DNA from: Pontibacter burrus
GTDB lineage: Bacteria > Bacteroidota > Bacteroidia > Cytophagales > Hymenobacteraceae
Assembly: GCF_010686685.1 (NCBI RefSeq)
Contig: NZ_JAAGWD010000003.1
Coordinates: 62,001-126,000, forward strand
Length of the DNA stretch: 64,000 bases
Reading direction: 5' to 3'
The notes below the pieces were generated by a model. It saw only the letters and a program-made list of their open reading frames with translations. It ran no database searches and was not told the origin of the DNA. Below are positions 22 through 63,131 of this stretch, piece after piece (positions within the stretch are counted from its first letter, which is position 1; every line of letters starts with the position of its first letter). The translations under genes were made by a program, and so were the position numbers.

Positions 22-1560
22 GTGGAAGAAAAGCAAAATAACTATAGCACTGATTCAGAGTCCAGGTTGCAGGCTATTATCGATACGGCTATTGACGGAA
101 TTATAACCATTGATAACCGTGGCGTAGTGGAAACTATGAACCCGGCTGCGGCGCGCATTTTTGGATATGATCCGGAAGAGATCATCGGGCAGAACATTAA
201 GGTTCTGATGCCTGAGCCGGATAAAAGCCTTCACGATGTATATATCGACAACTACCACCGCACGGGTATCGGGCAGATCATCGGCATTGGGCGCGAAGTG
301 TTGGGCAAGAAAAAGGATGGTACTATATTTCCGTTTCTGCTGAGTATCAGTGAAGTTCGCCTGCACGAAAAGCAGATTTTTACCGGCATAGTGCACGACA
401 TTACGGAGCTAAAGAAAACCGAAGCTGCGCTGCGAGAAAGCGAGAACAAGTTTAACTCCATCATACAAACGGCTGTAGACGGTATTATCACGATAGACAC
501 GCGCGGTCTGATCGAAATGGTGAACCCGTCGGCACAGAAGCTTTTTGGCTACGAAGAACATGAACTGATTGGCCGCAACATAAGCATGCTGATGCCGGAA
601 CCGGATAGTAGCCAGCACGATGCTTACATGGAACGCTACCACCGCACCCGCGAACCACGCATTATTGGCATTGGCCGTGAAGTATCCGGGCTACGAAAAG
701 ACGGAACCGTTTTCCCTTTCTTTCTGAGTATAAGTGAAGTACAGCTGGCTGACAGAAAAGTATACACTGGTTTTGTGCACGACATTACACACCAGAAAGT
801 AAGCGAAGAGCGCCTGAGACGTTATGCTGCTGAGCTGGAACGCAGTAACCGCGAACTACAGGATTTTGCCTATGTTTCGTCGCATGACCTGCAGGAGCCA
901 CTGCGCAAAATCCAAGCTTTTGGCGACCGCTTAAAGACCAAGGAATACGATAAACTCAGCGACCAGGGCAAGGATTATGTAGACAGGATGCTGAATGCAG
1001 CCTCGCGTATGCAGAACCTGATAAACGACCTGCTCGACTTCTCCAGAGTGACAAGCAAATCAAAGGCATTTGTTAAAGTAAAGCTCGATAAGATACTGTC
1101 GGAAGTGCTCTCTGACCTGGAAGTAACTATAGAACAGACCGGCGCTGTAATAGAAAGATCGCCGCTGCCAACTATAGAAGGCGAACCAACCCAGATGCGT
1201 CAGTTATTCCAGAACCTGATCAGCAATGCTATTAAGTTCCGGAAAGAGGGTGTTACCCCTGTTGTCAGGATCTCGTCCAGAAATGTGCAGCTACACGCGC
1301 ATCTCACTTCAACGCCCGGCGACGAAATGGTGGAAATAACGATAGAAGATAACGGCATTGGTTTCGATGAGAAATACCTGGATCGTATTTTTAATATCTT
1401 TCAGCGTCTGGAAGGGCAGAAGTATGAAGGCTCTGGTATTGGCCTGGCTGTCTGCCGTAAAATTGCAGTGCGCCACGGCGGCGACATAACGGCCAAAAGC
1501 ACGCCCGGCGAAGGCACCCGATTTATTATTACATTAGCAAAAAAACACTTACAGGAATAA
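22..1560 (+). CDS. Tandem FixL-like PAS sensor histidine kinase
   Basis: This 512-residue sensor kinase would autophosphorylate in response to a signal bound by its PAS domains. Two similar PAS domains lie at about residues 12-130 and 140-260. Each carries the FixL-like run HDxYxxxYHRT followed by IIGIGR, with His71/Arg91 in the first and His199/Arg219 in the second; in FixL these positions are the heme ligand and the distal oxygen-sensing arginine. The DHp helix has SHDLQEPLRKI with the phospho-acceptor His288, and the ATPase domain shows the N box (NLISNAIKF), DNGIGF and GSGIGL. No membrane segment is visible, so it is probably cytoplasmic. The start is GTG, because an in-frame stop lies at 7-9 and no ATG precedes the first PAS domain. 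It heads a run of four signalling genes. Heme binding is inferred from motif positions; many PAS domains with similar motifs bind no heme. Confidence 0.93.
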   Translation: MEEKQNNYSTDSESRLQAIIDTAIDGIITIDNRGVVETMNPAAARIFGYDPEEIIGQNIKVLMPEPDKSLHDVYIDNYHRTGIGQIIGIGREVLGKKKDGTIFPFLLSISEVRLHEKQIFTGIVHDITELKKTEAALRESENKFNSIIQTAVDGIITIDTRGLIEMVNPSAQKLFGYEEHELIGRNISMLMPEPDSSQHDAYMERYHRTREPRIIGIGREVSGLRKDGTVFPFFLSISEVQLADRKVYTGFVHDITHQKVSEERLRRYAAELERSNRELQDFAYVSSHDLQEPLRKIQAFGDRLKTKEYDKLSDQGKDYVDRMLNAASRMQNLINDLLDFSRVTSKSKAFVKVKLDKILSEVLSDLEVTIEQTGAVIERSPLPTIEGEPTQMRQLFQNLISNAIKFRKEGVTPVVRISSRNVQLHAHLTSTPGDEMVEITIEDNGIGFDEKYLDRIFNIFQRLEGQKYEGSGIGLAVCRKIAVRHGGDITAKSTPGEGTRFIITLAKKHLQE

Positions 1561-1571
1561 ACTATAGTTGC

Positions 1572-2021
1572 ATGAGTCCAAATCCAAGATCAATTATCAT
1601 ACTGATTGCCGACGACGATGCCGAAGACCGGATGCTGGTTAAAGAAGCATTGGAGGAAAGCCGCCTGAACAACCATATACAGTTTGTGGAGAACGGCGAA
1701 GAACTGCTGGATTACCTGAACAACAAAGGCAGGTTTGCAGACAAGGAACAGTACCCGACACCGGGCCTGATTCTGCTGGACCTGAACATGCCTAAAAAGG
1801 ATGGTCGTGAAGCGCTGAAAGAGATAAAGCAGCAGGAACATCTGCGCATGATTCCGGTTGTGGTGCTGACCACTTCCAAAGCCGAAGAAGACATCCTGCG
1901 CACCTACGACCTGGGCGTAAGCTCTTTTATTACAAAGCCTGTAACATTCAGCTCCTTGGTTGATGTAATGAAAACCCTGAGCAAATACTGGTTCGAAATT
2001 GTAGAACTGCCCAAAAGTTAG
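1572..2021 (+). CDS. Single-domain response regulator (Rcp1-like receiver)
   Basis: This 149-residue protein is a CheY-like receiver without an output domain. The acidic cluster DDD is at 14-16, the phospho-acceptor is Asp70 in LILLDLNMP, Thr100/Thr101 form the switch position and Lys122 is the conserved lysine. The insertion between beta 2 and the acceptor strand (NNKGRFADKEQYPTPG) is typical of Rcp1-type receivers that pair with PAS or phytochrome-like kinases having the SHDLQEPL type of DHp helix, as the upstream kinase does. It starts 11 bases after the kinase stop, so the two are probably co-transcribed and cognate. It likely acts as a phosphoryl shuttle or by protein contact, since it cannot bind DNA itself. 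Confidence 0.93.
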   Translation: MSPNPRSIIILIADDDAEDRMLVKEALEESRLNNHIQFVENGEELLDYLNNKGRFADKEQYPTPGLILLDLNMPKKDGREALKEIKQQEHLRMIPVVVLTTSKAEEDILRTYDLGVSSFITKPVTFSSLVDVMKTLSKYWFEIVELPKS

Positions 2022-2097
2022 TTAGAAAGTTAAAAAGTTTGGAAGTTAGAAAAGTGAATGTCGAGATTGAGTAACACTTTCTAACTTTTTAACTTAC
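2021..2097. repeat. Imperfect inverted repeat between two signalling genes
   Basis: The gap between the receiver gene and the next kinase holds AAAGTTAAAAAGTT near 2026-2039 and its near complement AACTTTTTAACTT near 2083-2095. The arms could form an AT-rich hairpin in the transcript, which might end or attenuate transcription, but no clear T-run follows. Read as a simple repeat with uncertain role. Confidence 0.45.
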
Positions 2098-2115: not shown

Positions 2116-3354
2116 ATGCCTCATAGCAACAAGATACGTGTACTGCTGATTGATGATGATGAAGATGATTTCATCATTACCCGGGATACAATTGATGAAA
2201 TTCCGGGGCGCAACTATGTGCTTGAATGGACAGCATCTTTCGGTGAGGCACTGGAGCTTATAAAGCAGGAGAAACACGATGTATACCTGGTAGATTTCAG
2301 GCTGGGAGCACACGACGGGCTGGAGTTGATCTCGCAGGCAGTGGAAGGCGGAAGTCTGGCGCCGTTTATACTTTTAACAGGCCAGAGCGACCGCGAAACC
2401 GATGAAAAGGCCATGCGCGTAGGGGCTTCGGATTATCTCGTAAAAGGCACTTTTGATCCGTTTAGTTTAGAGCGATCGATCCGCTATAGTGTGGAGCATG
2501 CCAAAAGCATGGCTGAAATACATAAGCTGAACTCTGAACTTGAACAACGCGTGGATGAGCGTACCCGTGAGCTGGGAGAGGCCGTTAAAAAGCTGGAAGA
2601 AACAAATCGCAGCCTCTACGAAGCACAGGTTGAGATACGCAAGGCACTGCAGAAAGAGAAGGAGCTGCATGAACTAAAATCGAGGTTTGTAACAATAGCC
2701 TCGCATGAGTTTCGTACGCCGCTTAGCACTGTACTTTCATCAGCATCCTTAATTGGCAAATACAAAGCCACTGAAGACGATGAGAAGAGACAGAAGCATG
2801 TGGAGCGCATCAAATCGGCGGTAAGCAATCTTACAACTATCCTAAACGATTTCCTGTCGATAAGCAGGATAGAGGAAGGCAAGATCTATAACGTACCAAC
2901 TACGTTCGACCTGAAAGACTTTACAGCCGAGATTGTAGACGAAATGCAGGGGCTTGTGAAGATCGGGCAGAAGATACACTACCAGCACAGCGGGCCAGAA
3001 ACTATAGTTACCTTAGATAAACAGTTACTAAAAAATATTATATTAAACCTGCTTTCCAACGCCAGCAAGTATTCCGGTGAAGGCAAGCAGATCTACATTG
3101 ACACAGCTGTAAACAGTACTATAAACCTGTCTGTAAAAGATGAAGGTATCGGGATTCCGGATGCTGACAAGGTACATTTGTTTACGCCTTTTTTCCGGGC
3201 GCAAAACGTGACCAATATACAGGGCACCGGTCTCGGACTAAACATTGTGAACCGCTACGTAGATATAATGGACGGATCTTTAACCTACGAAAGTGAACTG
3301 AACGAAGGCACTACTTTCCGTATAACATTCCCAATTCACCCCATAACAGCATAA
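2116..3354 (+). CDS. Hybrid receiver-histidine kinase
   Basis: A 412-residue protein with an N-terminal receiver (about 8-125; acidic IDDDEDD, phospho-acceptor Asp60 in VYLVDFRLG), a probable coiled-coil linker (about 135-185, rich in Glu, Leu and Arg), a HisKA helix with His197 in ASHEFRTPL, and an ATPase domain with NIILNLLSNASKYS, DEGIGIP and GTGLGL. A receiver placed before the kinase core suggests that the kinase is switched by phosphorylation from another kinase, here plausibly the PAS kinase upstream. No membrane helix is seen, so it should be soluble. The stop at 3354 is two bases before the next start, a tight operon arrangement. Its own output partner is most simply the receiver-CRP protein that follows. 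Confidence 0.93.
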   Translation: MPHSNKIRVLLIDDDEDDFIITRDTIDEIPGRNYVLEWTASFGEALELIKQEKHDVYLVDFRLGAHDGLELISQAVEGGSLAPFILLTGQSDRETDEKAMRVGASDYLVKGTFDPFSLERSIRYSVEHAKSMAEIHKLNSELEQRVDERTRELGEAVKKLEETNRSLYEAQVEIRKALQKEKELHELKSRFVTIASHEFRTPLSTVLSSASLIGKYKATEDDEKRQKHVERIKSAVSNLTTILNDFLSISRIEEGKIYNVPTTFDLKDFTAEIVDEMQGLVKIGQKIHYQHSGPETIVTLDKQLLKNIILNLLSNASKYSGEGKQIYIDTAVNSTINLSVKDEGIGIPDADKVHLFTPFFRAQNVTNIQGTGLGLNIVNRYVDIMDGSLTYESELNEGTTFRITFPIHPITA

Positions 3355-6470: not shown

Positions 6471-7091
6471 TGTCATTTCGAACATTCTTGAGACGCGAGT
6501 CGAAAAGAGCCAGCGCAGCTGTGAGAAATCTATCGCAGCTTATAGTTGAAGTTAATTACTCTTTGAACTAAGCCTTCCTTTCAAACTTCCTTCAATCCTG
6601 GGAGCTCTACTTGCCTACAGTTTCCAATTAGCTTTGGTGCCCTCACGGCCGGGAGGCCCCGTCTTTGGGCATCGCGCTGCTGCTTTCTTGCTATCCTCGT
6701 TCCTCGGATTGCCTAAAGGCACCACAACAAATCAAAGGCGCTCAACCCAAAGACTGAGAAGTTTCGAATAGCTACCACTAACTATAGTTTGATCCGGTAA
6801 GCTTCGAGATTTATCGGGATGATAGTCTCAAGGGGACAGGTAAACCTGTCCTTCTCGTGTTAAATAACTATAGCTAATTCAGATTTCTCCTTTCGTCGAA
6901 ATGACAGTTCGAAAAGCAGTAGCAGAAAAGTCCCCTTTGAAGGGGGCAGGGGGATGACAAACAGAAACTATAGAACTATAATCTCAACTACAACTATAGC
7001 AAAAAATCCCCTCTCGGGAGGGGCAGGGGTGGGTTAATACAGCAACTATAAAATTATAGCCAAGCTCCTTCCCCTGTTTTTAGGGGAAGGT
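6471..7091. repeat. Intergenic repeat island A
   Basis: This 647-base gap between convergent hemA and nuoN has no credible gene. It holds, in order: a TGTCATTTCGA...GAGAAATCTATC arm (6471-6533), the 175-bp module (6595-6772), a GACAGGT/ACCTGTC hairpin (about 6836-6853), a GATTTCTC...CGAAATGACA arm (6882-6906) that is the inverted mate of the first arm, a hairpin of the form AAGTCCCCTTT/AAGGGGGCAGGGG (6929-6953), a CCCCTCTCGGGAGGGG palindrome with GGGGTGGG (about 7010-7034), and CCTTCCCCT/AGGGGAAGG (7067-7090). ACTATAG motifs sit between the modules. The same order recurs in islands B, C and D. Confidence 0.85.
6595..6772 (+). repeat. 175-bp interspersed module, copy A
   Basis: Shares with copies B, C and D the blocks CCTGGGAGCT, GGTGC(G/C)CTCACGGCCG, CCCCGTCTTTGGGCATCGCG, TTGCCTAAAGGCACC and GGCGCTCAACCCAAAGACTG. 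GTCTTTGGG can pair with the later CCCAAAGAC, and TGCC-N4-GGCA forms a small inner hairpin. In its middle it matches copy C (CTGCTGCTTTCTTGCTA) more than B or D. A frame through it has an internal TAA, which argues against coding. Confidence 0.85.
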
Positions 7092-7107: not shown

Positions 7108-8568
7108 TTACTTAGCCACTATCTCCGGCACACTCACCAGCACATTCTGAATCAGCTGTACCAACCCAGTTGGGTACACACCGACATACACCAGAAGTAA
7201 TGCCAATACAGCCAGCGTACCTGCACTGGCAACATAAATAGAAGGGCGTAACCGTATAGTTGGCTCGCGCTCTGTTTCCGGTTGCTGGAACATGACGGCG
7301 ATGATCTTGATGTAGTAGTATAAGCCAATCACACTGTTGAGTACCAGCATGACCACCAGAAGCCATAGTTGGTCGTTTATACCAGCGGCGATAATGTAGA
7401 ATTTACCAACAAAACCAGCAGTGAGTGGAATACCCGCCAGCGATAGCAACATAGCCGAGAACACAGCAGCCGTCCAGGGACGCCGCCAAAGCAGGCCTTT
7501 GTAATCTTCCAAAAGTTCGGCATCGCTGTTTTTATCCGAGAGCATGGCTACCACACCAAACGCACCAACACTGGTAATAAAGTACGCTACCAGGTAAAAA
7601 GTTATTGCTTCTACTCCCATCTGATTACCTGCCATAAAGGCTACCAAAATATAACCTAAATGCGAGATTGATGAATAAGCCAGGATACGTTTTACGTTCT
7701 TCTGCATCAGGGCCAGCAGGTTTCCGGCAAACATGGACGCAATGGCAACTATAGTTAAAATCGTAACCAGCACCGGGTAACGGAAACCATCTATTTCCAT
7801 GAAAAAACGGATCAGCAAGCCTAATACTCCTCCCTTGGAAACGGTAGCAATAAAAGCCGTAACTGGAGCAGGCGCACCTTCATACACGTCCGGCGTCCAC
7901 ATATGGAACGGTACAATGCCCAACTTAAAACCAACCCCGATCAGTATCATGCCGATACCTGTGAGTAGCAACAGCGGCAACTCCTGCATACCGGCTATAC
8001 TTTGAGCCAGGCCTGAGAAAACCATCGTGCCCGTACTAAAGTACACCAGCGCCATCCCGAACAGCATGAAGGCAGAAGAGAAAGCTGCGAGAATCAGGTA
8101 TTTGATCCCAGCTTCGTCGGAGCGGGGACGGGTGCGCAGGTAAGGTATAAGTGCATAAAGCGAGATACTGAGGATTTCCAGGCCCAGGAACAGCGATGCA
8201 AAGTGAGTACTGATCACCAGCACACAGGCACCTAAGGTAGCCAGAACCAGTAGCAAGTAGTATTCTTCTTTCCGTTCTTCGCGCTGCTCAAAATAGGCAT
8301 AAGAGAGCATACTCACGAGCAACGACGTCAGGAGGATCATTCCGATATAGAACACGCCGAAGCCATCAATCACAAACATCGGCTCAATGACATAAGCTGT
8401 GGTGGTGCGCAACTCAAACAGCGACCCAAAAGCTGCAATAAACGACAGCGCCGTAATGACATAGATGATCTTATGGTTGCGCCATGCGGCAATGACCAGC
8501 ATCGAGATAAGTACTGCAAATGTAAGGATCAACAGCGGCATCAGGTATAAAAAATCAGTCTGGCTCAT
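7108..8568 (-). CDS. nuoN: NADH-quinone oxidoreductase subunit N
   Basis: A 486-residue, highly hydrophobic antiporter-like subunit of the complex I membrane arm, with about 14 membrane helices. The family motif around HMWTPDVYEGAPAPVTAF is present, as is the conserved lysine-bearing helix near SKGGVLGLLIRF. It takes part in proton translocation next to NuoM. It is the last gene of the locus, starting 5 bases after nuoM ends, and is followed by a repeat hairpin at 7067-7090 that may end the transcript. Confidence 0.97.
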   Translation of the reverse strand: MSQTDFLYLMPLLILTFAVLISMLVIAAWRNHKIIYVITALSFIAAFGSLFELRTTTAYVIEPMFVIDGFGVFYIGMILLTSLLVSMLSYAYFEQREERKEEYYLLLVLATLGACVLVISTHFASLFLGLEILSISLYALIPYLRTRPRSDEAGIKYLILAAFSSAFMLFGMALVYFSTGTMVFSGLAQSIAGMQELPLLLLTGIGMILIGVGFKLGIVPFHMWTPDVYEGAPAPVTAFIATVSKGGVLGLLIRFFMEIDGFRYPVLVTILTIVAIASMFAGNLLALMQKNVKRILAYSSISHLGYILVAFMAGNQMGVEAITFYLVAYFITSVGAFGVVAMLSDKNSDAELLEDYKGLLWRRPWTAAVFSAMLLSLAGIPLTAGFVGKFYIIAAGINDQLWLLVVMLVLNSVIGLYYYIKIIAVMFQQPETEREPTIRLRPSIYVASAGTLAVLALLLVYVGVYPTGLVQLIQNVLVSVPEIVAK

Positions 8569-8573
8569 GTCTT

Positions 8574-10172
8574 TTAGTTTGGAGATTGAATGATCTGGAG
8601 ATTTGAAAATGCACGCTGATTTATAGCTAGTTGGTTCGTGTTTATAGTTGCTTCAGGTTCCGGCTGTAAAACCGCAGTTTTGGGTTCAGCTATAGTTGGC
8701 TCCTTCATATTGTAAGCCTGTAGTTGTTCTGTAATGGAAGGTCTGGCCATGTCGATGATGGGTTGCGGATACAGCCCCAGCCAGAGTAAGCCAAGCACCA
8801 TCGGTACAGCGATCAGCATTTCACGGAAGTTCAGGTCGCGGAATGTTTCCTGTTGCGGGCCGGGCTCGTAAAATACTTTCTGCATAATGCGTAACGAGTA
8901 AGCCGTTGCCATCACGATACCGATCGTAGCAAAAACAGTCAGCCAGTTGTTAGCCTGCCAGGAACCGACTAAAGTCAGAAATTCAGCGATAAAATTGCCA
9001 AGGCCGGGAAGGCCCAGTGTTGCCATTACAAACACTAACGCCACAACGCCCATCCTCGGAGCTTTTGACCAGAAGCCGCCCATCTGCGCCAGATCGCGGG
9101 TATGCAGGCGCTCGTACAGGAAGCCGGCCAATATAAATAGCGCACCGGTACTTAGCCCGTGCGCGATCATCTGCATCACCACGCCTTGTAGTGCCCATTC
9201 GTTAAAGGCAAAAACACCCAGAATCACAAAGCCCATGTGGCTCACAGAAGTATAAGCTACCAGGCGTTTCAGGTCGGTTTGCGAGTAAGCAACTATAGCT
9301 CCGTATAGTATGCCGATAACACCTAACAGCATGGCCCAGGGCGCAAATTCCACAGCAGCAGTCGGGAAGAGTGGCACGACGAATCTAAGCAAGCCATAAG
9401 CCCCGGTTTTAAGCAACAGCCCGGCTAAAATAACGCTACCCGCGGTTGGAGCCTGTGAGTGTGCATCGGGCAGCCATGAATGGAAGGGAACCACCGGTAA
9501 CTTTACCAGGAAAGCAGCCAGGAAACCAAACATCAGCAGGCGTGCAGCATCAGTGGTAAGCGGTGTATTAAGGAGCTCAAAGTAGTTAAAAGTATAGTTG
9601 CCTGCTTCGGAGCCGTGGATAAAGTAGAGACCAAGGATCGCCAGCAACATGAGCAAGCCGCTTGCCTGCGTAAACAGGAAGAATTTGAAAGCTGCGTAGG
9701 TACGGTTCTCATGCCCCCAAACCCCGATCAGGAAATACATCGGTATCAGCATTACTTCCCAGAAAAAGTAGAACAGGAACAAATCCATGGTCAGGAATAC
9801 ACCTGCAATACCAGCCAAGACCCAGAGCAAATTAAAATGGAAGAAGCCGACTTTGGTTTTGATCTCTTTCCAGGAGATAAGTACGGACAGCAAACCGAGA
9901 AAGAAGGTCAGTAATAACATCAGCAGACTTAATCCATCCAGCGCCAAACTAAAGCTCACTCCCCATTGCGGAATCCATGGTATATCGTAGCGGATCAGCC
10001 ATGCAGAACCAGTTGTTGCTTCCGTGCTGATCCAAAGATAAACTATAAGTATAAGGTCGAGCAAAATGGCACCCAACGCCACCCAGCGAGGCAATTCCGG
10101 GCTAACTTTTTTAGAGAGCCAGGCCAGCAGTCCGCCAGCCATCAGTATCACAATCAGCCAGACGAGTATCAT
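8574..10172 (-). CDS. nuoM: NADH-quinone oxidoreductase subunit M
   Basis: A 532-residue antiporter-like subunit of the complex I membrane arm. FYFFWEVMLIPMYFLIG holds the conserved glutamate of helix 5 and LPVVPFHSWLPDAHSQAPT is the family signature. The last 60 or so residues are a polar tail beyond the final helix, rich in Pro, Glu and Thr, longer than in many NuoM proteins. The start overlaps the nuoL stop by 4 bases (ATGA), indicating translational coupling. Confidence 0.97.
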   Translation of the reverse strand: MILVWLIVILMAGGLLAWLSKKVSPELPRWVALGAILLDLILIVYLWISTEATTGSAWLIRYDIPWIPQWGVSFSLALDGLSLLMLLLTFFLGLLSVLISWKEIKTKVGFFHFNLLWVLAGIAGVFLTMDLFLFYFFWEVMLIPMYFLIGVWGHENRTYAAFKFFLFTQASGLLMLLAILGLYFIHGSEAGNYTFNYFELLNTPLTTDAARLLMFGFLAAFLVKLPVVPFHSWLPDAHSQAPTAGSVILAGLLLKTGAYGLLRFVVPLFPTAAVEFAPWAMLLGVIGILYGAIVAYSQTDLKRLVAYTSVSHMGFVILGVFAFNEWALQGVVMQMIAHGLSTGALFILAGFLYERLHTRDLAQMGGFWSKAPRMGVVALVFVMATLGLPGLGNFIAEFLTLVGSWQANNWLTVFATIGIVMATAYSLRIMQKVFYEPGPQQETFRDLNFREMLIAVPMVLGLLWLGLYPQPIIDMARPSITEQLQAYNMKEPTIAEPKTAVLQPEPEATINTNQLAINQRAFSNLQIIQSPN

Positions 10173-12055: not shown

Positions 12056-12061
12056 AGTTGG

Positions 12062-12370
12062 TTATCCTTTCATTAAGTTAGCGGCATCACTGTCCAGGGT
12101 TTTGAGCTGGTGATAGATCTGAAGTATAAGTGCGAGCCCTACCGACACTTCGGCAGCAGCCATAGTCAGTATAAAAATGAACATCACCTGCCCGTCGGGT
12201 TGCACCCATTTAGAGCCGGCAACTATAAAAGCCAGCCCGGCTGCATTGAGCATGATCTCGACAGAAATGAGCATGAAGATGATGTTGCGGCGAATAAGCA
12301 CGCTGATCAGGCCCAGCATAAAAAGTACGCCAGCCAGCAGTAAAGCGGCTTCCATGTGTGCGGGTGTCAT
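12062..12370 (-). CDS. nuoK: NADH-quinone oxidoreductase subunit K
   Basis: A 102-residue three-helix subunit of the complex I membrane arm. The motif LISVEIMLNAAGLAF carries the conserved glutamate used in proton transfer. A frame upstream stays open to 12481, but I place the start at the ATG at 12370: the protein then has the normal family length (about 100) and the ATG overlaps the nuoJ stop as ATGA, while the upstream extension is only out-of-frame nuoJ sequence. Confidence 0.95.
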   Translation of the reverse strand: MTPAHMEAALLLAGVLFMLGLISVLIRRNIIFMLISVEIMLNAAGLAFIVAGSKWVQPDGQVMFIFILTMAAAEVSVGLALILQIYHQLKTLDSDAANLMKG

Positions 12371-12912: not shown

Positions 12913-12916
12913 GGCC

Positions 12917-13432
12917 TTAAGGGATTAAGCTTTTAACATCTACCGGCGGACGCTCATTTTCAGCTTCGCCTTTATCTTTTCCGCCGATAGCCATGCCCGC
13001 TACTTTATAGTAGTTGTAGCCGTGATATTTGCCCTGACCGTTTATCAGCAGGTCTTTTTTCTCATACACCAGGTTCTGGCGGTTATATTCTCCCATCTCA
13101 AAATCAGGGACAAGCTGTATGGCGTAAGTAGGGCAGGCATCTTCGCAGTAACCACAGAAAATGCAACGCGAAAAGTTTATTCTGAAAAACTCCGGGTAAC
13201 GTCGGCCATGCTCGTCTTCGGTGGCTTGTAGCGAGATGCAGTCTACGGGGCAGGCAGCAGCACACAAATTGCAGGCTACGCAGCGTTCACCGCCGTCGGG
13301 GTCGCGGGAGAGCACGATGCGGCCGCGCCAACGTGTCGGAAGTATAGCCTTCTGCTCGGGGTACTGTATGGTGTCCCGCTTATGGAATGCATGCAGAAAT
13401 GTAAGCCACATACTGCGCAACAAACTAAACAT
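12917..13432 (-). CDS. nuoI: NADH-quinone oxidoreductase subunit I
   Basis: A 171-residue ferredoxin-like subunit with two 4Fe-4S clusters (N6a and N6b), passing electrons toward cluster N2 in NuoB. Cys51, 54, 57 and 61 form [12 protein letters not shown], and Cys90, 93, 96 and 100 form [12 protein letters not shown]. The N terminus contacts the membrane arm. A 273-base repeat-filled gap separates it from nuoH, so the locus is not strictly one compact operon. Confidence 0.97.
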
Positions 13433-51502: not shown

Positions 51503-51528
51503 TTTTATCCGAATCTGAAAGTATAATC

Positions 51529-54514: not shown

Positions 54515-55782
54515 TGAGAATACTTCTATTACACCAGTACTTCTTAGAAGAAGATGATCCTGGAGGGTCGCGCTTTAACGAGATGACGAAGCAATGGTCT
54601 GATCAGGGCCATGAGATAACTGTTATAGCAGGCATGATGCACTATAATGGTAGTCAGAAGCGAGAGGAATACAAAGGGAGATGGTTTAAAAGAAAGCAAC
54701 AGGGACAGGTAGATGTCTGGCGAACCCATGTATCCGAAAGCTATAATTCTGGTTTCCTAGGTCGCCTTTGGGGGTACTTTTCTTTTGTGTTTTCCTCTCT
54801 GTGGGCGGGTTTGTTCAAAGTGAAAGGGAATTACGATATTATTCTGGTAACCTCGCCGCCTCTGTTTGTAGGCATTACAGCATACTTACTGTCTAAGTTT
54901 AAGAGAGTCCCTTTTGTATTCGAAATAAGGGATCTTTGGCCAGAATCTGCTATTGACACTGGTGTTGTTACAAATAATGCTATAATAAGGTTAGCCTATT
55001 GGTTTGAAGCTTTCATCTATGAAAAGGCCAAACTTATTAATGTTTTGACTCCTGCGTTTAGAGATTCCCTGATTGAGAAAAAAGGCGTAGCACCGGGGAA
55101 GATTATTTTTATCCCTAATGCTGCGGATTTCAGCTTATCAGATAATATACTGGAAAGCTTCGATGCAGAGGATTTCAGAGATGAAAAAGGTTGGAGTGAC
55201 CGTTTTGTGATAACCTATGTTGGGGCTCATGGCGTTGCTAACCATCTGGAGCAAATTCTGGAAACAGCAGATCTGCTCAGAGATACAAATGTATTGTTTG
55301 TGTTAATTGGATCTGGCATGCAGAAAGCAAAGCTGGTTACAAAGGCATCAAACATGAAGTTGAATAATGTTCAGTTTTTAGACCCAGTATCGAAGGCGGA
55401 TGTATTTAAATATATTTTAGCTTCGGATATGGGTACTTCTGTACTTAAAAAAGTAGATACTTTTAAGACTGTTTACTCAAATAAAACATTTGATTACATG
55501 GCCTGTAAGAAACCAATTCTAATGGCTATTGACGGTGTTTCCAGAAAGTTAGTGGAAGAAGCAGAAGCGGGGATATATGTAGAGCCGGAGGATTCAGTAG
55601 ATTTTGCTTCAAAGATCAGGTTATATCTAACTAATCCGGAACGGGTAGCTTCTGAAGGAGTAAATGGTTATCTATATGCGAAGCAGAACTTTGATCGAAA
55701 AGCTTTAGCTGATAAGTATGTTGCCTATTTGAAAGGATTTGACAAAGATTATGTACAGGAACCAGTTAAAGCGGTTTATTGA
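54514..55782 (+). CDS. GT4-type glycosyltransferase (WbuB-like)
   Basis: A 422-residue GT-B transferase. I start it at the ATG at 54514, directly coupled to the lyase stop (TAATG), giving [20 protein letters not shown]; an open frame upstream runs through the 3' end of the lyase gene. The acceptor/donor region [14 protein letters not shown] and the C-terminal [12 protein letters not shown] are typical of the WbuB group, which often adds an amino-sugar. The exact sugar is not predictable. Confidence 0.92.
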
Positions 55783-56356
55783 TTTCATATTAGCTACAAT
55801 TGCATTTATTATTGCGCTACCTATTTTCGCAATAGTTACCTTGTGTCTTACAGTTGCTAACCAAGGCAAACCATTCTTTCTGCAGCCTCGCCCTGGTAAA
55901 AATGGTAAAATTTTCCGTGTTACTAAGTTCAAGACAATGAACGATCAGAAAGATGCGCGGGGAAATCTACTTCCGGATGAGAAAAGACTTACAGCTATCG
56001 GTAAGTTTGTTAGAAAGACCTCTCTTGACGAAATACCTCAATTGCTGAACGTAATCAAAGGTGAAATGAGTCTGATAGGGCCAAGGCCATTGCTGGTAGA
56101 ATACCTCCCCCTTTACAATAAAGTACAGAGCAGAAGGCACGAAGTAAGGCCTGGTATTACAGGATGGGCACAGGTGAATGGTAGAAATGCCATCAGTTGG
56201 GAGGATAAATTTAAGTATGATGTGTGGTATGTGGACAATATGTCATTCCTGCTCGACTTAAAGATCATTTTTCTAACAATTCAAAAAGTCTTCAAATCAG
56301 AAGGCATTAGTGCAGATGGTAACGTGACCATGCCTAAATTCCAGGGGAGCAACTAA
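55751..56356 (+). CDS. Initiating sugar-phosphate transferase (PglC-like)
   Basis: A 201-residue polyprenyl-phosphate phosphoglycosyltransferase of the small monotopic type. One re-entrant hydrophobic helix lies at about 10-32, the catalytic Asp-Glu is in [11 protein letters not shown], and SLIGPRPLL and [13 protein letters not shown] complete the signature. I choose the ATG at 55751 over a TTG 12 bases upstream. It overlaps the previous gene by 32 bases. With the D, E and F genes around it, it should transfer diNAcBac-phosphate or a related sugar to the carrier lipid, starting the repeat unit. Confidence 0.93.
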
Positions 56357-56357
56357 T

Positions 56358-56960
56358 ATGTATTTATTTGGAGCAAGTGGGCATGCTAAGGTGATCATGG
56401 ACATACTACAAAGTATGGCTATGCCTGTTACAGGTCTGTTTGATGATAATCCTGCTATTAAAGAATTAAATGGTGCTTCGGTGTTAGGAAAATACATGGG
56501 GCAGGAACTAGATGCAGAACTTATTATAAGTATAGGCGATAACGGTATTCGTGCGAGAGTTGCTAACAAATTGCAGGTGCAGTTTGGGAGAGCCATTGCT
56601 AAAAGTGCTACTGTTTCAAACACCTCAGAAATTGAAGAGGGTACAGTTGTGATGCAGGGGGCAATTATACAAGCTAGTACATTAGTAGGAAAACATGCCA
56701 TCATTAACACACGTGCAAGTGTAGACCACGACTGCCGCGTTGGTGATTTTGCTCATATTTCGCCGGGAGCAGTTTTGTGTGGCAATGTACAAGTTGGTGA
56801 GGGAACGCACATTGGTGCCGGGGCTATAGTTATACCGAACCTGACAATAGGAAAGTGGTGTAAGATAGGCGCTGGTTCTGTCGTTACCAAGGATATTCCG
56901 GATTTTTCAACAGCTGTGGGCAACCCGGCAAGAATCATAAAATGCAATCAAAATGAATAA
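56358..56960 (+). CDS. Sugar N-acetyltransferase (PglD/NeuD-like)
   Basis: A 200-residue protein with an N-terminal Rossmann-like UDP-sugar domain (MYLFGASGHAKVIMDIL) and a C-terminal left-handed beta-helix with the catalytic His in VDHDCRVGDFAHIS. It acetylates the 4-amino group of UDP-4-amino-sugars. It ends in VGNPARIIK. It overlaps the aminotransferase gene by 8 bases, agreeing with action on its product. Confidence 0.93.
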   Translation: MYLFGASGHAKVIMDILQSMAMPVTGLFDDNPAIKELNGASVLGKYMGQELDAELIISIGDNGIRARVANKLQVQFGRAIAKSATVSNTSEIEEGTVVMQGAIIQASTLVGKHAIINTRASVDHDCRVGDFAHISPGAVLCGNVQVGEGTHIGAGAIVIPNLTIGKWCKIGAGSVVTKDIPDFSTAVGNPARIIKCNQNE

Positions 56961-58095
56961 CAAAATATGGCTCTCTTCCCCGCACATGGGAGGTACGGAA
57001 GAGAAGTATGTAAAAGAGGCTTTCGATACAAACTGGATAGCCCCGCTGGGGCCTAACGTAGATGGCTTCGAGAAAGACCTGGAAAACTATTTAGGTAACG
57101 AGGTACATGTAGCGGCGCTAAGTTCAGGCACCGCAGCCTTGCATCTGGCCCTGATCATACTTGGTGTAAAGGCTGGAGATGAAGTGATCTGCCAGTCGAT
57201 GACCTTCTCTGCTTCTGCTAACCCGATTGCCTACCAGGGAGCAATGCCTGTTTTCGTAGATAGCGAAGAACGCACCTGGAACATGTCGCCAGAGTACCTG
57301 GAGCAAGCTATTCAGGATAGGGTTAGTAAAGGTAAAAAGCCAAAGGCTATTATAGTGGTGCACCTATACGGCATGCCAGCTGAGATGGACCGTATTATGG
57401 AGATAGCTGACAAGTATGAAATTCCTGTTGTTGAAGATGCTGCTGAGGCCTTAGGTTCCAGTTATAAGGGAAGAAAGTTGGGTACTTTCGGTGCCATGAG
57501 CATACTCTCGTTCAATGGTAATAAAATTATCACTACTTCTGGTGGTGGAGCTTTAGTTTCAACGAACGAAGAGTGGATCAGAAAAGCACGTTTCCTGGCT
57601 ACGCAGGCCCGCGATAACGCTCCGCACTATCAGCACTCCCACATTGGCTACAACTATCGCATGAGTAACATCTGCGCTGGTATTGGCCGTGGGCAAATGG
57701 AGGTGCTGCAAGAGAGGGTAGCGCAGCGCCGCCAGAACTATAGTTACTATGCAGATACTTTTGCCAGTAACAACGCTATCATATTACCGGACGAGCCTTC
57801 ATCCGATTTTTATTCAAACCGCTGGCTAACAACAATCTTAGTAGATCCAGCTTCAGGCACAGATCGCGAAGAAATACGGTTGGCCCTGGGAAAAGAGAAC
57901 ATAGAAAGCAGGCCATTATGGAAACCAATGCACCTACAGCCAATTTTCGAGGGTGCTCCTTTTTATGGTGATGGTACCAGCGAAAAATTGTTTAACAATG
58001 GCCTCTGCCTGCCTTCTGGCTCCAATCTAACTACCGATGACCTGGCGCGTGTAACCACTATCATGAAGCGCTATCTGGAAAACGTTACAGCTTAA
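56953..58095 (+). CDS. PLP-dependent sugar aminotransferase (PglE-like, DegT/DnrJ/EryC1)
   Basis: A 380-residue aminotransferase that converts a UDP-4-keto-6-deoxy-HexNAc into the 4-amino sugar. The PLP lysine is Lys191 in SFNGNKIITTSGGG, and the family signature VEDAAEALGS lies near residue 160. N-terminal MNNKIWLSSPHMGGTEEKYV is typical of this class. A terminator follows at 58117. Confidence 0.94.
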   Translation: MNNKIWLSSPHMGGTEEKYVKEAFDTNWIAPLGPNVDGFEKDLENYLGNEVHVAALSSGTAALHLALIILGVKAGDEVICQSMTFSASANPIAYQGAMPVFVDSEERTWNMSPEYLEQAIQDRVSKGKKPKAIIVVHLYGMPAEMDRIMEIADKYEIPVVEDAAEALGSSYKGRKLGTFGAMSILSFNGNKIITTSGGGALVSTNEEWIRKARFLATQARDNAPHYQHSHIGYNYRMSNICAGIGRGQMEVLQERVAQRRQNYSYYADTFASNNAIILPDEPSSDFYSNRWLTTILVDPASGTDREEIRLALGKENIESRPLWKPMHLQPIFEGAPFYGDGTSEKLFNNGLCLPSGSNLTTDDLARVTTIMKRYLENVTA

Positions 58096-58116
58096 TTAAC
58101 TGTGATATGAGTTGTA

Positions 58117-58149
58117 AAAGGGCTGTAAGTAATTGCAGCCCTTTTTTAC
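58117..58149 (+). terminator. Rho-independent terminator after the aminotransferase gene
   Basis: AAAGGGCTG (58117-58125) pairs with CAGCCCTTT (58136-58144) and runs into a T-rich tail. It separates the pglC-D-E genes from the PglF-like gene, which has its own probable promoter. Confidence 0.87.
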
Positions 58150-58210
58150 TTTTATAATAATACGTGATCGTAGGGCGTTAATTTAAAGATATTGTGACGA
58201 AAGGTAGTGC

Positions 58211-58237
58211 TTGTGTTACAGATGTTTAGTATTTTTG
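58211..58237 (+). promoter_or_regulatory. Probable promoter of the PglF-like gene
   Basis: TATTTTTG at 58230-58237 matches TAnnTTTG; TTGTG at 58211 is a possible -33 element with a short 16-base spacer. It would give a leader of about 130 bases before the ATG at 58374. Confidence 0.5.
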
Positions 58238-58373
58238 CAGCAAGATTTTGTGTTTGGAGCTTATAGAAACAAGATTAGACAGAATCGATAGCGCTTTTTG
58301 AAATTGCATTAAATTTACTGATTTAGTGTTAACCAATTGCACAGAACTTGCGTAACATGTCATCTGATTACTG

Positions 58374-60323
58374 ATGGCAGAAGCCATTATTCACCCTTAC
58401 ATGAAAACATTTTTACTTAATAAGTCTTTACCTAAATGGATCATACTGCTGATCGACCAGGTAATTACCAGCTGGGCATTCGTCTTTTCTTTTTTGCTCA
58501 TTCGTCAGTTCGAATTTACAGATCTGCTGCGCGGACATTTTACGATCTATGTCGGATTGTATTGTCTGGTTTATTTAGGTGTATCGTATGCTATGCGCAT
58601 TCATACCGGCCTGATCCGCTATTCTGGCACAGATGATATTTACCGTATCTTTTCTGCGGTATTTCTTTCCAGTGTTATTTATGGAGTGGCTGTAGGTATT
58701 TTTGTTGGTCCGATGTTCCATTTGCGATCGGTTAATATTTATGTCGTACTGCTGGTTAACTTTTTCATCTCTTCTTCGCTGCTGATTATGCTGCGGATAG
58801 GAGCGAAGGCGCTGTTCTATTATATCAAGCGTAGCACCGGCGGAGTAAAAGAAACCGTTTTGATTTATGGTGCGAACGGTTTCTCGTTACTGGTAAAACA
58901 GGCACTTGAAACGAGCGGCATGGGGCGTTTTAACATTGCAGGTTTTATTGACGATAACCCAAGCAAAGTAGATAAATCTATCCAGCAGATCCGCGTTTAT
59001 CGTAGCAAAGATATCCGTAGATTACACCATACATTAGGAGTAGAAAAGTTACTGATCCTGAGCGAAGACCTGAAAGCTCCTTCTAACAAAAAGCTGGTCG
59101 AAAAAGCAGTAGAGCTCGGCATAAAAGTACTCACAGTGCCACCTACAGCAGAATGGATGTCAGGCCAGCTGCGCATGAACCAGATCCAGGATCTGAAAAT
59201 AGAAGACTTATTGCAGCGTCCGCCGATTGTGATCGAAAATAAGCAGATGTTCCGTGACCTTAAAGGCAAACGTGTACTGGTAACAGGAGGTGCCGGTTCT
59301 ATTGGGTCGGAGATCGTGAGGCAGGTACTCAACTATAAGCCAGAGATGGTGATCATCTGCGACCAAGCAGAATCTCCACTTCACGAGCTGCAATTAGAGA
59401 TAGAAGAAGCACATCCTGAGGCGGATCTGAAACTATGCATAGCCGACATTCAGAATTTTAATAGGATGTATGCGCTGTTCAAAGAGTATAATCCACAGTA
59501 TGTGTACCATGCGGCTGCATATAAACATGTGCCGATGATGGAGAATAATCCTTCGGAGGCGCTTCTTACCAACGTATTAGGCACTAAAAACCTGGCAGAT
59601 CTTTCGATTACTTTTGATGTGGAGAAATTTGTGATGATCTCTACAGATAAGGCCGTGAACCCTACTAACGTGATGGGTGCCTCGAAACGTATTGCTGAAA
59701 TTTATATTCAGTCGCTGAATAAAGTGAGCCAGGGAACAGGTAAAGATGGCGTTGTGGGAGAAAAGCAGACACGCTTTATTACAACCCGATTTGGAAACGT
59801 GTTGGGTTCTAATGGCTCGGTTATTCCGCGTTTCCGTTCTCAGATACAGAAAGGCGGTCCGATCACAGTTACCCATCCGGATATTACCCGCTATTTTATG
59901 ACCATACCCGAAGCGGTACAGTTGGTGCTGGAAGCCGGTACGATGGGGCAGGGCGGAGAGATCTTTATTTTTGATATGGGCGAACCTGTGAAGATCGTGA
60001 ACCTGGCGAAGAAGATGATCAAGCTTGCAGGTTTAACACCGGGTGTAGACATAGATATAGTGTATTCAGGCCTGCGTCCTGGCGAGAAGCTTTACGAAGA
60101 ATTGCTGAATGAGGAGGAGACCACGATACCAACACACCACCATAAGATAAAGATCTCGAAAGTGCGGGAGTACAAATATGGTAAGGTAGTAAACGATGTT
60201 ACTGAACTGCTTTCGCTTTGCAAGAATGGTGATGAGCTGTTAGCAGTTAGGAAAATGAAGGCTATTGTGCCGGAGTTCCTCAGCAAGAATTCAAGATTCG
60301 AGGAGCTTGATGCAGTGAACTGA
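58374..60323 (+). CDS. UDP-GlcNAc 4,6-dehydratase, membrane type (PglF/WbpM/CapD-like)
   Basis: A 649-residue enzyme with four N-terminal membrane helices (about 20-160), a first Rossmann-like domain (about 165-290, VLIYGANGFSLLVKQ), and the catalytic extended SDR domain from about 300 (VLVTGGAGSIGSEIVRQVL). The motif STDKAVNPTNVMGASKR has Met where classic SDRs have Tyr, as in all dehydratases of this type. It makes UDP-4-keto-6-deoxy-GlcNAc, the substrate of the upstream aminotransferase. The start could also be Met10. Confidence 0.95.
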   Translation: MAEAIIHPYMKTFLLNKSLPKWIILLIDQVITSWAFVFSFLLIRQFEFTDLLRGHFTIYVGLYCLVYLGVSYAMRIHTGLIRYSGTDDIYRIFSAVFLSSVIYGVAVGIFVGPMFHLRSVNIYVVLLVNFFISSSLLIMLRIGAKALFYYIKRSTGGVKETVLIYGANGFSLLVKQALETSGMGRFNIAGFIDDNPSKVDKSIQQIRVYRSKDIRRLHHTLGVEKLLILSEDLKAPSNKKLVEKAVELGIKVLTVPPTAEWMSGQLRMNQIQDLKIEDLLQRPPIVIENKQMFRDLKGKRVLVTGGAGSIGSEIVRQVLNYKPEMVIICDQAESPLHELQLEIEEAHPEADLKLCIADIQNFNRMYALFKEYNPQYVYHAAAYKHVPMMENNPSEALLTNVLGTKNLADLSITFDVEKFVMISTDKAVNPTNVMGASKRIAEIYIQSLNKVSQGTGKDGVVGEKQTRFITTRFGNVLGSNGSVIPRFRSQIQKGGPITVTHPDITRYFMTIPEAVQLVLEAGTMGQGGEIFIFDMGEPVKIVNLAKKMIKLAGLTPGVDIDIVYSGLRPGEKLYEELLNEEETTIPTHHHKIKISKVREYKYGKVVNDVTELLSLCKNGDELLAVRKMKAIVPEFLSKNSRFEELDAVN

Positions 60324-60357
60324 TTTCGTTAAATGTTATTAGGTAATTAATATAGAT

Positions 60358-60390
60358 GGCACGAGTTCGTACTCGTGCCTTTTTTATTTT
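60358..60390 (+). terminator. Rho-independent terminator after the PglF-like gene
   Basis: GGCACGAGT (60358-60366) and ACTCGTGCC (60371-60379) form a perfect 9-bp stem with TCGT loop, followed by a T-rich tract. It closes the polysaccharide locus. Confidence 0.93.
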
Positions 60391-60458
60391 TTTATAATCC
60401 TGTTCAATTCCCTACATATAGGGTTATTGCAGCAGTGCTGGTTCTAGTTCTATAGTTG

Positions 60459-61156
60459 CGGTTGGTCCACCTTTAACCCTTCAGCGCTAGGCTCACTACC
60501 TTCGAACTCACTTTGCGGTAGTCTAAGGCGGGGAGCTATGCTGCTAGTGCTATAGTTTGAGTTATAGTTCTATAGTTAGCGCTTACACACCCCTATAAGC
60601 TACACTCGCAAGTCTCGAACTCCCGTTCTCACTTGTCCTCAAGGGGACAGTCTCTGCATTTGCTATAGTTGAAGCTACGATTTTATAGTTGTGGTTTGTC
60701 ATCCCCCTGCCTCCTTCGAAGGGGGACTTTTCTGCTACGACTATAGTTGTAGCTATAGTACTATAGTTGCAGTTCAAGAAAGGACAGGTCGCGACCTGTC
60801 CCTACGGGCCTACTACCAAGAAAAGGCAATGCAACTATAGCTAATCGAACTAAGAACTATAGCTATCGAAAGATCTCAGTCTTTGGGTTGAGCGCCTTGT
60901 AGATTTCTGGTGCCGTAGGTATTGTGAGGAACGAACAAAGGAAATGTACACCGCGCGATGCCCGAAGACGGGGCCCCGCGGCCGTGAGCGCACCAAAGCT
61001 GGATTGAAACGATAGGTTAGTAAAGCTCCCAGGGTAAGGGGTAACTATAGCATAAACTGCTTGTGGCAAGTGGCAACTATAGCCAACTATAGAAATATAA
61101 TCTATAGATGTAAACTATAGGCTGTAATAGATTTCTCGCTACACTCGAAATGACAT
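60459..61156. repeat. Intergenic repeat island D (reverse orientation)
   Basis: The 1.1-kb gap between the PglF-like gene and the ABC-F gene holds the island modules in reverse: an AGTGAGTTCGAAGGTAGTGAG-type element (complement of 60494-60514), a CCCCTTGAGGACAAG-type element (about 60636-60652), a TGTCATCCCCCTGCC...AAGGGGGACTTTT hairpin (60697-60731) identical in type to that at 6929 in island A, GACAGGTCGCGACCTGTC (60783-60800), the 175-bp module (60862-61033) and a GATTTCTCGCTACACTCGAA arm ending in ATGACA (61129-61154). ACTATAG motifs are very dense. From 61157 to 61460 I see nothing further. Confidence 0.85.
60862..61033 (-). repeat. 175-bp interspersed module, copy D
   Basis: The complement holds the blocks CCTGGGAGCT, TTTGGTGCGCTCACGGCCGC, CCCCGTCTTCGGGCATCGCG and GGCGCTCAACCCAAAGACTG, and the middle GGTGTACATTTCCTTTG matches copy B. 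The inner TGCC-N4-GGCA hairpin is changed to TACC-N3-GGCA. A frame with no stop runs through it on the - strand, but it has no start and is not conserved in the others. Confidence 0.85.
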
Positions 61157-61460
61157 AAGAGAAAATATAGATGCAACCCCTTTGAGGTAAAATAGTACAT
61201 CTCTACATCTGTTTTTGAAATTGAGCGCTAGGAGTGAGAGAAAGTTGATGAGTTATATTGTCAGAAGTTTTAAAGTGCCTGTCTTACACCAAAAGTTAAC
61301 TTAAATCTATCAATCCACTAAATCTCATAAACCCTAATTCAGACAATCTAATATTTTGCCAATGAACTGACTTACGAAACCTTTTGAGCTGCATTTTCCT
61401 TATTCTCCGAAGCAAGGGTGCTAACTATATTTTCCACCTCAAAAAAAGAAAGATAACACC

Positions 61461-61468
61461 TATCTTTG
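61461..61468 (+). promoter_or_regulatory. Possible -7 element of the ABC-F gene
   Basis: TATCTTTG fits TAnnTTTG and lies 20 bases before the ATG at 61488, so the transcript would have a very short leader. No TTTG lies at the -33 position. Confidence 0.45.
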
Positions 61469-61487
61469 CGGCCATAAATTTATACTT

Positions 61488-63131
61488 ATGATTTCAGTTG
61501 ACGCGGTAGCAGTGGAGTTTAATGGCTCTACACTTTTCAGTAACGTATCTTTTAACATCAACGAAAACGACCGGATCGCCCTGATGGGGAAGAACGGTGC
61601 AGGAAAATCAACGCTGCTTAAAATTATTGCAGGCGTTGGCAAGCCTACACGTGGTAAAATTTCTGCTCCGAAGGATGCCGTAATTGCCTACCTGCCGCAG
61701 CACCTGCTCACCGAAGACAATTGTACTGTTTTTGAAGAAGCATCCAAAGCGTTTGGCAAAGTACTGGACATGAAAGCGCAGATGGATGAGTTGAACCGCC
61801 AACTGGAAACCCGAACTGATTATGATTCCGACGACTACTATAAGCTGATTGAGCAGGTATCAGAGTTAGGGGAGAAGTATTACTCGATTGAAGAGATTAA
61901 CTACGATGCTGAAGTTGAGAAGACACTGAAAGGTCTTGGGTTCAGCCGTGAAGATTTTATCCGCCCGACAAACGAGTTTAGTGGTGGCTGGCGCATGCGT
62001 ATCGAGCTGGCTAAAATTCTGTTGCAGAAACCCGATCTGATCCTGCTGGATGAACCCACCAACCACCTCGACATCGAGTCGATTCAGTGGCTGGAGGATT
62101 TCCTGGTGAACAATGCGAAGGCAGTGATCGTGATATCGCACGACAAAACCTTTGTAGACAATATTACCAACCGTACCATTGAGGTAACAATGGGCCGCAT
62201 TTACGACTACAAAGTAAACTATAGCCATTACCTGCAGTTGCGCAAAGAGCGTCGGGAGCAACAGCAAAAGCAGTTCGAAGACCAGCAGAAGGAGATTGCC
62301 GATATTACGACATTTATCGAACGTTTTAAAGGCACTTATTCTAAAACGTTACAGGTGCAGTCGCGCGTGAAGATGCTGGAGAAGATGGAGATCGTGGAAG
62401 TGGATGAAGTGGATACATCGGCGCTGAACGTAAAATTTCCGCCGGCGCCGCGCTCTGGTAACTACCCGGTTATTGCTGATGGTCTTACCAAAAAGTACGG
62501 CGATCATGTTGTATTTAAAGAAGCATCTCTAACTATAAACCGTGGCGAGAAAGTAGCTTTTGTTGGCAAGAACGGCGAAGGGAAGTCAACGCTGGTAAAA
62601 GCTATAATGGGCGAGATCGATTTTGAAGGCAATTTGCAGCTTGGGCATAACAGTATGATTGGCTACTTTGCCCAGAACCAGGCTTCGTTGTTGGATGAGA
62701 GCCTCACTGTTTTTCAAACTATAGATGAGATTGCTGTAGGAGATGCCCGCACGCGTGTAAAAGACTTACTTGGTGCTTTTATGTTCAGCGGTGACACGAT
62801 TGAGAAGAAAGTAAAAGTATTGTCGGGTGGCGAGAAAACCAGGCTTGCAATGATAAAGCTTTTGTTGCAGCCTGTAAACCTGCTGATCCTGGACGAACCG
62901 ACCAACCACCTTGATATCAAAACCAAAGATATTCTGAAAGATGCCCTGAAAGCTTTTGACGGTACTTTAATCCTGGTGTCTCATGACCGAGATTTCCTGG
63001 ATGGGTTGGCAACCAAAGTGTTTGAATTTGGCAACAAGCGTATTCGTGAGCACTTCGAGGATATTAACGGCTTCCTGCGTAACAAGAAAATGGAAAACCT
63101 GCGCGAGATTGAGAGAACGGCAGCGAAATAA
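61488..63131 (+). CDS. ABC-F family ATPase (YbiT/Uup-like translation factor)
   Basis: A 547-residue protein of two ABC domains without membrane helices, joined by a charged linker (about 240-300). Walker A motifs are GKNGAGKST and GKNGEGKST; signatures are FSGGWRMR and LSGGEKTRL; Walker B motifs are LILLDEPTNHLD and LLILDEPTNHLD. ABC-F proteins bind the ribosomal E site and relieve stalled or antibiotic-bound ribosomes. The lack of a long extra linker does not point to a clear resistance subtype, so a housekeeping role is more likely. Confidence 0.94.
   Translation: MISVDAVAVEFNGSTLFSNVSFNINENDRIALMGKNGAGKSTLLKIIAGVGKPTRGKISAPKDAVIAYLPQHLLTEDNCTVFEEASKAFGKVLDMKAQMDELNRQLETRTDYDSDDYYKLIEQVSELGEKYYSIEEINYDAEVEKTLKGLGFSREDFIRPTNEFSGGWRMRIELAKILLQKPDLILLDEPTNHLDIESIQWLEDFLVNNAKAVIVISHDKTFVDNITNRTIEVTMGRIYDYKVNYSHYLQLRKERREQQQKQFEDQQKEIADITTFIERFKGTYSKTLQVQSRVKMLEKMEIVEVDEVDTSALNVKFPPAPRSGNYPVIADGLTKKYGDHVVFKEASLTINRGEKVAFVGKNGEGKSTLVKAIMGEIDFEGNLQLGHNSMIGYFAQNQASLLDESLTVFQTIDEIAVGDARTRVKDLLGAFMFSGDTIEKKVKVLSGGEKTRLAMIKLLLQPVNLLILDEPTNHLDIKTKDILKDALKAFDGTLILVSHDRDFLDGLATKVFEFGNKRIREHFEDINGFLRNKKMENLREIERTAAK

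Follow-up and report, generated by a model that had tools for sequence, protein, structure and literature searches.

The window analyzed here, a 64,000-nucleotide stretch of the Pontibacter burrus genome (contig NZ_JAAGWD010000003.1, positions 62,001 to 126,000), contains an NADH dehydrogenase (nuo) operon on the minus strand (7108–22307; open reading frames, with gene names read from the translations), a surface-polysaccharide gene cluster (37601–56850), and many copies of a short motif, AACTATA(G), with which this report is concerned. A first-pass annotation of the window had noted the motif as a near-palindrome, AACTATAGTT, found on both strands, in genes and in gaps, and distinct from a simple repeat; this distribution is borne out. 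There are 16 copies of AACTATAGTT in the window (0.15 expected; at most 1 in 100 dinucleotide shuffles), at 1560–1569, 3000–3009, 6780–6789, 7747–7756, 15415–15424, 18030–18039, 21590–21599, 25137–25146, 29409–29418, 29641–29650, 30006–30015, 30933–30942, 35164–35173, 37160–37169, 37250–37259, and 57736–57745. All eight places that had been named earlier are present, offset by no more than 3 bases. ACTATAG and CTATAGT give 115 strand-wise counts at 92 distinct places, close to the previous figure of about 90, and order-1 composition predicts 7.9; on the same order-1 basis, AACTATA occurs 154 times (10.9 expected) and AACTATAG 99 times (2.5 expected). The whole draft genome (4,314,171 bases, G000) holds 1300 AACTATAGTT versus 9 copies of the reversed-word control, which confirms a genome-wide, highly iterated motif, and 7489 AACTATAG on both strands versus 157 for its reversed control, a density of about 1.7 AACTATAG per kb. 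At least one AACTATA lies in 296 of 388 one-kb pieces drawn from this genome and three relatives, and an rRNA operon (L013) contains a single copy.

The enriched unit is the asymmetric AACTATA(G). While AACTATAGTT is indeed present and enriched, as the first-pass annotation held, it is an overlapping dyad of two AACTATAG joined head to head, and such dyads hold 32% of the AACTATAG in the window. The palindrome was therefore rejected as the unit, since the enrichment is carried by the asymmetric 7–8-mer; an AACTATA core with asymmetric flanks is not a perfect palindrome of the kind seen in highly iterated palindromes (HIPs). In these flanks, G is avoided at −1, +8, and +9, and position +7 favors G, then A, preferences that persist at the 620 sites considered with dyads excluded. 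Words one base removed from AACTATAG are themselves enriched 4.9, 3.0, 2.5, 2.4, 0.9, 1.8, and 3.1 times for changes at positions 1 to 7, compared with 0.7 to 1.4 for the reversed-word control. These values were computed with all exact sites on either strand masked; unmasked values are higher and lead to the same conclusion. Such graded neighbors are the trace that would be expected of a protein with a strict center and tolerant edges.

The motif is unevenly spread over the window. Two motif-rich stretches, 1–37600 and 56851–64000 (where the final pair of 4-kb bins has counts of 4 and 19), together hold 149 of the 154 AACTATA in 44.75 kb, versus an order-2 expectation of 7.0. The intervening polysaccharide cluster at 37601–56850 has 5, versus 4.6 predicted from local composition. 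The earlier description of the motif as present throughout the window consequently holds for the rest of the window and fails at 37.6–56.85 kb, where it falls to chance level. This desert has a G+C content of 0.39 versus 0.47, and its Pfam matches (Poly_export/SLBB, Wzz/GNVR/AAA_31, and Polysacc_synt) are to export and synthesis functions. From the one island examined, we infer that the cluster is probably acquired DNA that has yet to gain the motif, in which case motif density could act as an island finder within the genus.

Codon usage was refuted as the cause by synonymous shuffling. In 193 genes (our own longest-open-reading-frame calls) within about 251 kb of the genome (the window plus 12 stretches), AACTATA occurs 418 times versus a mean of 57.0 and a maximum of 71 in 60 synonymous-codon shuffles, and the reversed-word control in the same genes gives 37 versus 36.0. 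The first-pass annotation had called for such a codon-shuffled control and for a comparison with background models; the latter, run on the window and the 251 kb and joined by the whole-genome reversed-word control, likewise leaves the enrichment standing. The two commonest in-gene placements (264 of 418) set three of the seven bases on wobble positions. In this genome and its close relatives, AACTATA density per kb is 1.88 in coding DNA, 5.69 in divergent gaps, 6.22 in tandem gaps, and 10.54 in convergent gaps, rising as coding constraint falls. Chi and segregation motifs carry an orientation bias. AACTATA displays none relative to GC skew (476 versus 436, p 0.20; stretches of this genome and three relatives with skew of at least 0.02), which rules out a Chi-like orientation along replication.

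Whole-genome counts on both strands in all 50 genomes available for the genus revealed differently spelled words on a common TATA core that follow the phylogeny, i.e., dialects. Each genome was classed by the commonest of three words, provided that it exceeded 2000 copies (a threshold that we set). AACTATAG is dominant in 5 genomes (6288 to 8208 copies), AAGTATAA in 22 (2246 to 7030 copies), and AGGTATAG in 12 (2823 to 5222 copies), with no or only a weak dominant word in the other 11. Further words were sought in 20–140 kb samples of some genomes, and two weaker same-core words, GGTATAR (G037) and TATATAR (G043), were found in this last class; TATA is constant across the three strong and two weaker forms. 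Several genomes carry two words. Three of the AAGTATAA genomes also contain AACTATAG, namely G027 (2617 AACTATAG and 3911 AAGTATAA), G033 (2002 AACTATAG), and G044 (907 AACTATAG), and G046, one of the five AACTATAG genomes, has 2125 AAGTATAA. Across 49 genomes from other genera, AACTATAGTT reaches at most 18 copies. With sizes of 4.9–6.5 Mb, the 11 genomes whose word is weak or absent mostly exceed the 39 dialect-bearing ones (3.8–5.5 Mb). A separate local array in G020 (C1:1944098–1946633) holds at least 39 AGGTATAG spaced 64–69 bases apart and resembles a clustered regularly interspaced short palindromic repeat (CRISPR) array or a tandem repeat.

The same dialects were recovered from the nuo operon, compared over 80 named loci that were gathered with one operon protein. 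As top word, Pontibacter sp. Tf4, P. fetidus, P. populi, and one uncultured isolate have AACTATAG; AAGTATAA or AAGTATAG leads in many species; and AGGTATAG leads in a group that includes P. roseus, P. indicus, and P. lucknowensis. The operons of P. diazotrophicus, P. pamirensis, P. ummariensis, P. beigongshangensis, Rufibacter, Sabulibacter, and Adhaeribacter have none of these words at the top. On the nuoCD tree, one clade unites all AACTATA rows and another all AGGTATA rows (support 100/100 for each), and the AAGTATA rows are scattered and need two changes, a spread that suggests AAGTATA as the oldest dialect. Two of the two-word genomes, G027 and G033, group with the AACTATAG genomes on the comEC tree, and dialect replacement therefore looks gradual. 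Conversion in place from AAGTATA to AACTATA is mostly ruled out, as only 20 of 1311 words aligned to AACTATA sites are AAGTATA; AGGTATA sites are more often former AAGTATA (260 of 1768 aligned words). These alignments cover eleven genes, nine found in 36 rows and two in only 1 and 4 rows.

Orthologous sites are also maintained between species. For the nuo operon, expected retention was predicted from codon alignments using 7-mers of equal A+T content and codon phase; within one dialect, sites are kept 1.7–3.4 times above this expectation, the row pairs in all retention counts given here not being independent. Comparisons among four AACTATA species find the AACTATA site conserved in 158 of 240 cases (predicted fraction 0.386), and comparisons of P. 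ruber and P. vulgaris with other AAGTATA species find their AAGTATA sites conserved in 145 of 333 (0.128). For the latter sites, conservation falls to 13 of 248 comparisons with AGGTATA species (0.072), 0 of 121 with motif-less Pontibacter (0.082), and 2 of 154 with other genera (0.092). When AAGTATA sites were pooled from all 13 species and followed into four motif-less Pontibacter, 7 of 217, 7 of 217, 7 of 219, and 25 of 217 were kept (the last in P. pamirensis), each under prediction. Because motif-less species lost sites at the same codons, protein constraint is unlikely to be the cause of retention. The comEC region behaves similarly: with 66.2 predicted, AAGTATA is retained in 162 of 544 cases within the set of AAGTATA and mixed genomes, compared with 3 of 205 in AACTATAG genomes (32.5), 5 of 143 in AGGTATAG genomes (10.2), 16 of 369 in weak genomes (36.3), and 5 of 294 where the motif is missing (24.9). 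Retention of AACTATA in this region is 30 of 65 among AACTATAG genomes (18.1 predicted) and 14 of 37 in the two-word genome G027 (7.4). Sites thus appear to be mostly abandoned outside their own dialect, with one locus, nuo, disagreeing in a respect given below.

Two components of DNA import and recombination are present with and without the motif: all 50 genomes have comEC, and all 32 genomes searched for dprA have that gene, motif-less genomes included. The comEC gene has an in-frame stop in G009 (a AGGTATAG genome) and G022 (a AAGTATAA genome), both still dialect-bearing; recent competence loss and sequencing errors are each possible. A 341-residue neighbor of comEC that had seemed motif-associated is an AIR-synthase-type protein (Pfam AIRS) and was set aside as unlikely to be relevant. 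Uptake that dispenses with a pilus does exist in Bacteroidota: a study of Riemerella anatipestifer reports that transformation depends on ComEC, DprA, ComF, RecA, and a further four proteins that do not resemble uptake machinery described so far (PMC8459023).

An 8-base word kept up at several thousand places, yet rewritten between sister species, calls for a specific recognition protein. The explanation that we favor, to which we assign not quite an even chance, is that the word works like a DNA uptake sequence (DUS), a candidate self tag kept by sequence-biased transformation. Uptake, a reader, and the reader's drive are the parts that we infer. AACTATA(G) would be a short asymmetric tag that is recognized in double-stranded form whichever way it points, and a putative DNA-binding protein at the surface or in the periplasm would favor fragments bearing it. 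Tagged fragments would enter via ComEC, be protected by DprA, and recombine, such that chance near-matches would be converted to the full tag where coding constraint permits. A shift in the reader's preference outside the constant TATA core would let a new dialect accumulate (AAG to AAC or AGG) as the old one decays, and tags would decay altogether once reader specificity is lost.

Several results weigh against a self tag maintained by transformation. Since comEC and dprA also occur in motif-less genomes, motif gain and loss are not explained by these genes. Of 32 genomes, 28 gave matches to the type IV pilus/type II secretion ATPase family PF00437, but these span only 38–66 of its 370 positions, and one of them is over the cutoff (pilins were not searched); a receptor of the ComP type, the class on which known systems rely, is therefore not expected. 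DUF5689, the one bacteroidete competence domain sought and among those of the R. anatipestifer proteins, matches in 24 of 61 genomes, distributed as 5/5 AACTATAG, 7/22 AAGTATAA, 5/12 AGGTATAG, 5/11 weak or motif-less genomes, and 2/11 genomes of other genera, and its gene in G000 adjoins a SusD-like gene; given this neighbor and the failure to track the motif, DUF5689 was rejected as a candidate. Nonoverlapping inverted pairs, which are common for DUS in Neisseria, show no excess at 10–59 bases apart (+− 12 and −+ 42, versus ++ 70 and −− 56), and the rarity of inverted relative to direct pairs also rules out terminator hairpins. In the comEC region, AACTATA retention in the two-word genomes G033 and G044 is merely at expectation (16 of 74, 18.5 predicted). 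Old AAGTATA sites also persist in the nuo operon of AACTATA species (412 of 876 versus a predicted fraction of 0.196), in contrast to the 3 of 205 of the comEC region; these are possibly old sites or imports from AAGTATA relatives. Finally, a search of the open-license literature turned up no data on transformation in Pontibacter.

The likeness to known uptake sequences is nevertheless extensive. Uptake sequences are described for Pasteurellaceae and Neisseriaceae in the papers cited here (PMC1939737, PMC3630211, PMC7811141). In Neisseriaceae, DUS comprise eight dialects around a constant CTG, and one genome has two dialects at near-equal frequency, with 1294 overlapping dyads (PMC3630211). 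The Pontibacter word shares with DUS its short, nonpalindromic form, its thousands of copies, dialects that follow clades and leave a core unchanged, a two-dialect genome, overlapping dyads, a preference for permissive regions, and relatives of the same family in which no word is obvious (PMC3630211). It differs in having a TATA core, an AT-rich composition, a length of 7–8 bases, and a host in another phylum; in lacking a detected pilus ATPase and an inverted-pair excess; and in being known from sequence alone. For Pasteurellaceae, the uptake of DNA bearing uptake signal sequences (USS) is pilus-dependent. USS are of a different sequence, and biased uptake has been tested for them; the two words are alike in their many copies, nonpalindromic form, absence of orientation bias, extragenic excess, and graded mismatched forms, and the Pontibacter word agrees with the molecular-drive signature described for uptake sequences (PMC1939737). 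Pontibacter displays an asymmetric word on both strands, clade dialects, a noncoding preference, chance-level occurrence in the one probably foreign island, graded mismatched forms, and ComEC with DprA. Because no type IV pilus was detected (as judged by PF00437 in 32 genomes), nonoverlapping inverted pairs are not in excess, and biased uptake is proposed from sequence, we do not class the word as a DUS.

A bolder version of the self-tag explanation, which we regard as possible but appreciably short of an even chance, holds that Pontibacter has a full DUS system with at least three dialects and a receptor other than a type IV pilin. Sequence-specific bacterial sex would then have been invented independently here, and the two-word genomes would be caught in mid-turnover between dialects. 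An uptake sequence of Pontibacter or of any other member of the Bacteroidota is described in none of the titles and abstract openings found by searching open-license articles. If the explanation is true, a third case, unrelated to the other two and offering dialects, losses, and transitional genomes among 50 sequenced species, would allow the origin of such words to be tested, that is, whether they arise from the molecular drive of a biased receptor or from selection for self recognition. It would also offer a route to the outer-membrane DNA importer of pilus-free Bacteroidota.

Other explanations share part of this evidence. The word could be a genome-wide binding site for an intracellular protein acting in nucleoid organization, segregation, or Chi-like recombination, with dialects following changes in that protein; we judge this unlikely, though deserving of appreciable weight. 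An asymmetric core, graded neighbors, maintained sites, and clade-wise dialects would suit any recognition protein, and chance-level occurrence in an acquired island would suit Chi-like motifs as well. Chi sites, like the Pontibacter word, are short and asymmetric and differ between species (PMC3630211). The Pontibacter word, however, is without their orientation bias and, at its density per kb, is far more frequent than the 1008 Chi sites given for E. coli (PMC1939737). A density that peaks in convergent gaps and is lowest in genes speaks of permission rather than placement, and absence from several lineages would be odd for a housekeeping role. The role in chromosome organization raised by the first-pass annotation thus survives within this alternative but gains nothing from strand bias, of which none is seen.

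The first-pass annotation also compared the motif with HIP1 (GCGATCGC) of cyanobacteria. We consider a HIP1-like origin, in which the motif would be generated and preserved by methyl-directed repair acting with a DNA methyltransferase, improbable. HIPs are similarly dense, with very high copy numbers; the word is swapped in some relatives, and its identity changes between genomes together with methyltransferases (PMC4390886). The window's genome has two D12 matches and four matched stretches of C5 methyltransferases. HIPs, however, are palindromic, mostly GC-rich, and paired with cognate methyltransferases, whereas the Pontibacter core is asymmetric and AT-rich, gives way to AAGTATA or AGGTATA in related species, and shows no consistent association with three methyltransferase families. 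PF01555 matches in 17 of 32 genomes (with no match in G000, G018, G031, or G038), PF02086 in 8 of 32, and PF00145 in 18 of 32, and G014 and G023, with 6609 and 5124 AAGTATAA, lack a match to any of them (the search covered these three families and did not extend to Type I or Eco57I-type enzymes). The pattern fits DUS better than HIP1. Similarly small is the probability that biased mutation or mismatch repair of the very-short-patch type writes the motif without function. Such a process predicts a genome-wide, strandless motif that is strongest in unconstrained DNA, as is seen, but it should leave a depleted donor word; no one-base neighbor is clearly depleted (the lowest, AACTCTAG, occurs 0 times versus 3.1 expected) and most are enriched. 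Moreover, the eight nuo sites at which one of the four AACTATA species differs have changed at seven positions, by both transitions and transversions, and the roughly 50-fold enrichment of the 8-base word (395 versus 8.0 expected) demands whole-word recognition. A codon, amino-acid, or composition effect, for which the use of ordinary codons in the commonest placements might argue, retains virtually no probability in view of the synonymous shuffles, the greater density outside genes, and the same-genus genomes that are without the motif.

Other repeated words were noted in the comparison material. The first 20 kb of G063 (L177) contain 217 GGAGTACT in what appears to be a large tandem or CRISPR-like array. 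In 21.7 kb of an uncultured Anaerolineae (L081), ACGGCCG occurs 68 times versus 9.0 expected and is possibly a further highly iterated word, and in G080 (L186) GATTAGTG occurs 19 times versus 0.3 expected, a count in which local repeat and dispersed word are not distinguished. Elsewhere in the window, a Mutator-family transposase lies at 63264–63974, and at 32116–35520 a Pfam match to Ku is followed by a long open reading frame read as LigD, the two constituting a nonhomologous end-joining pair.

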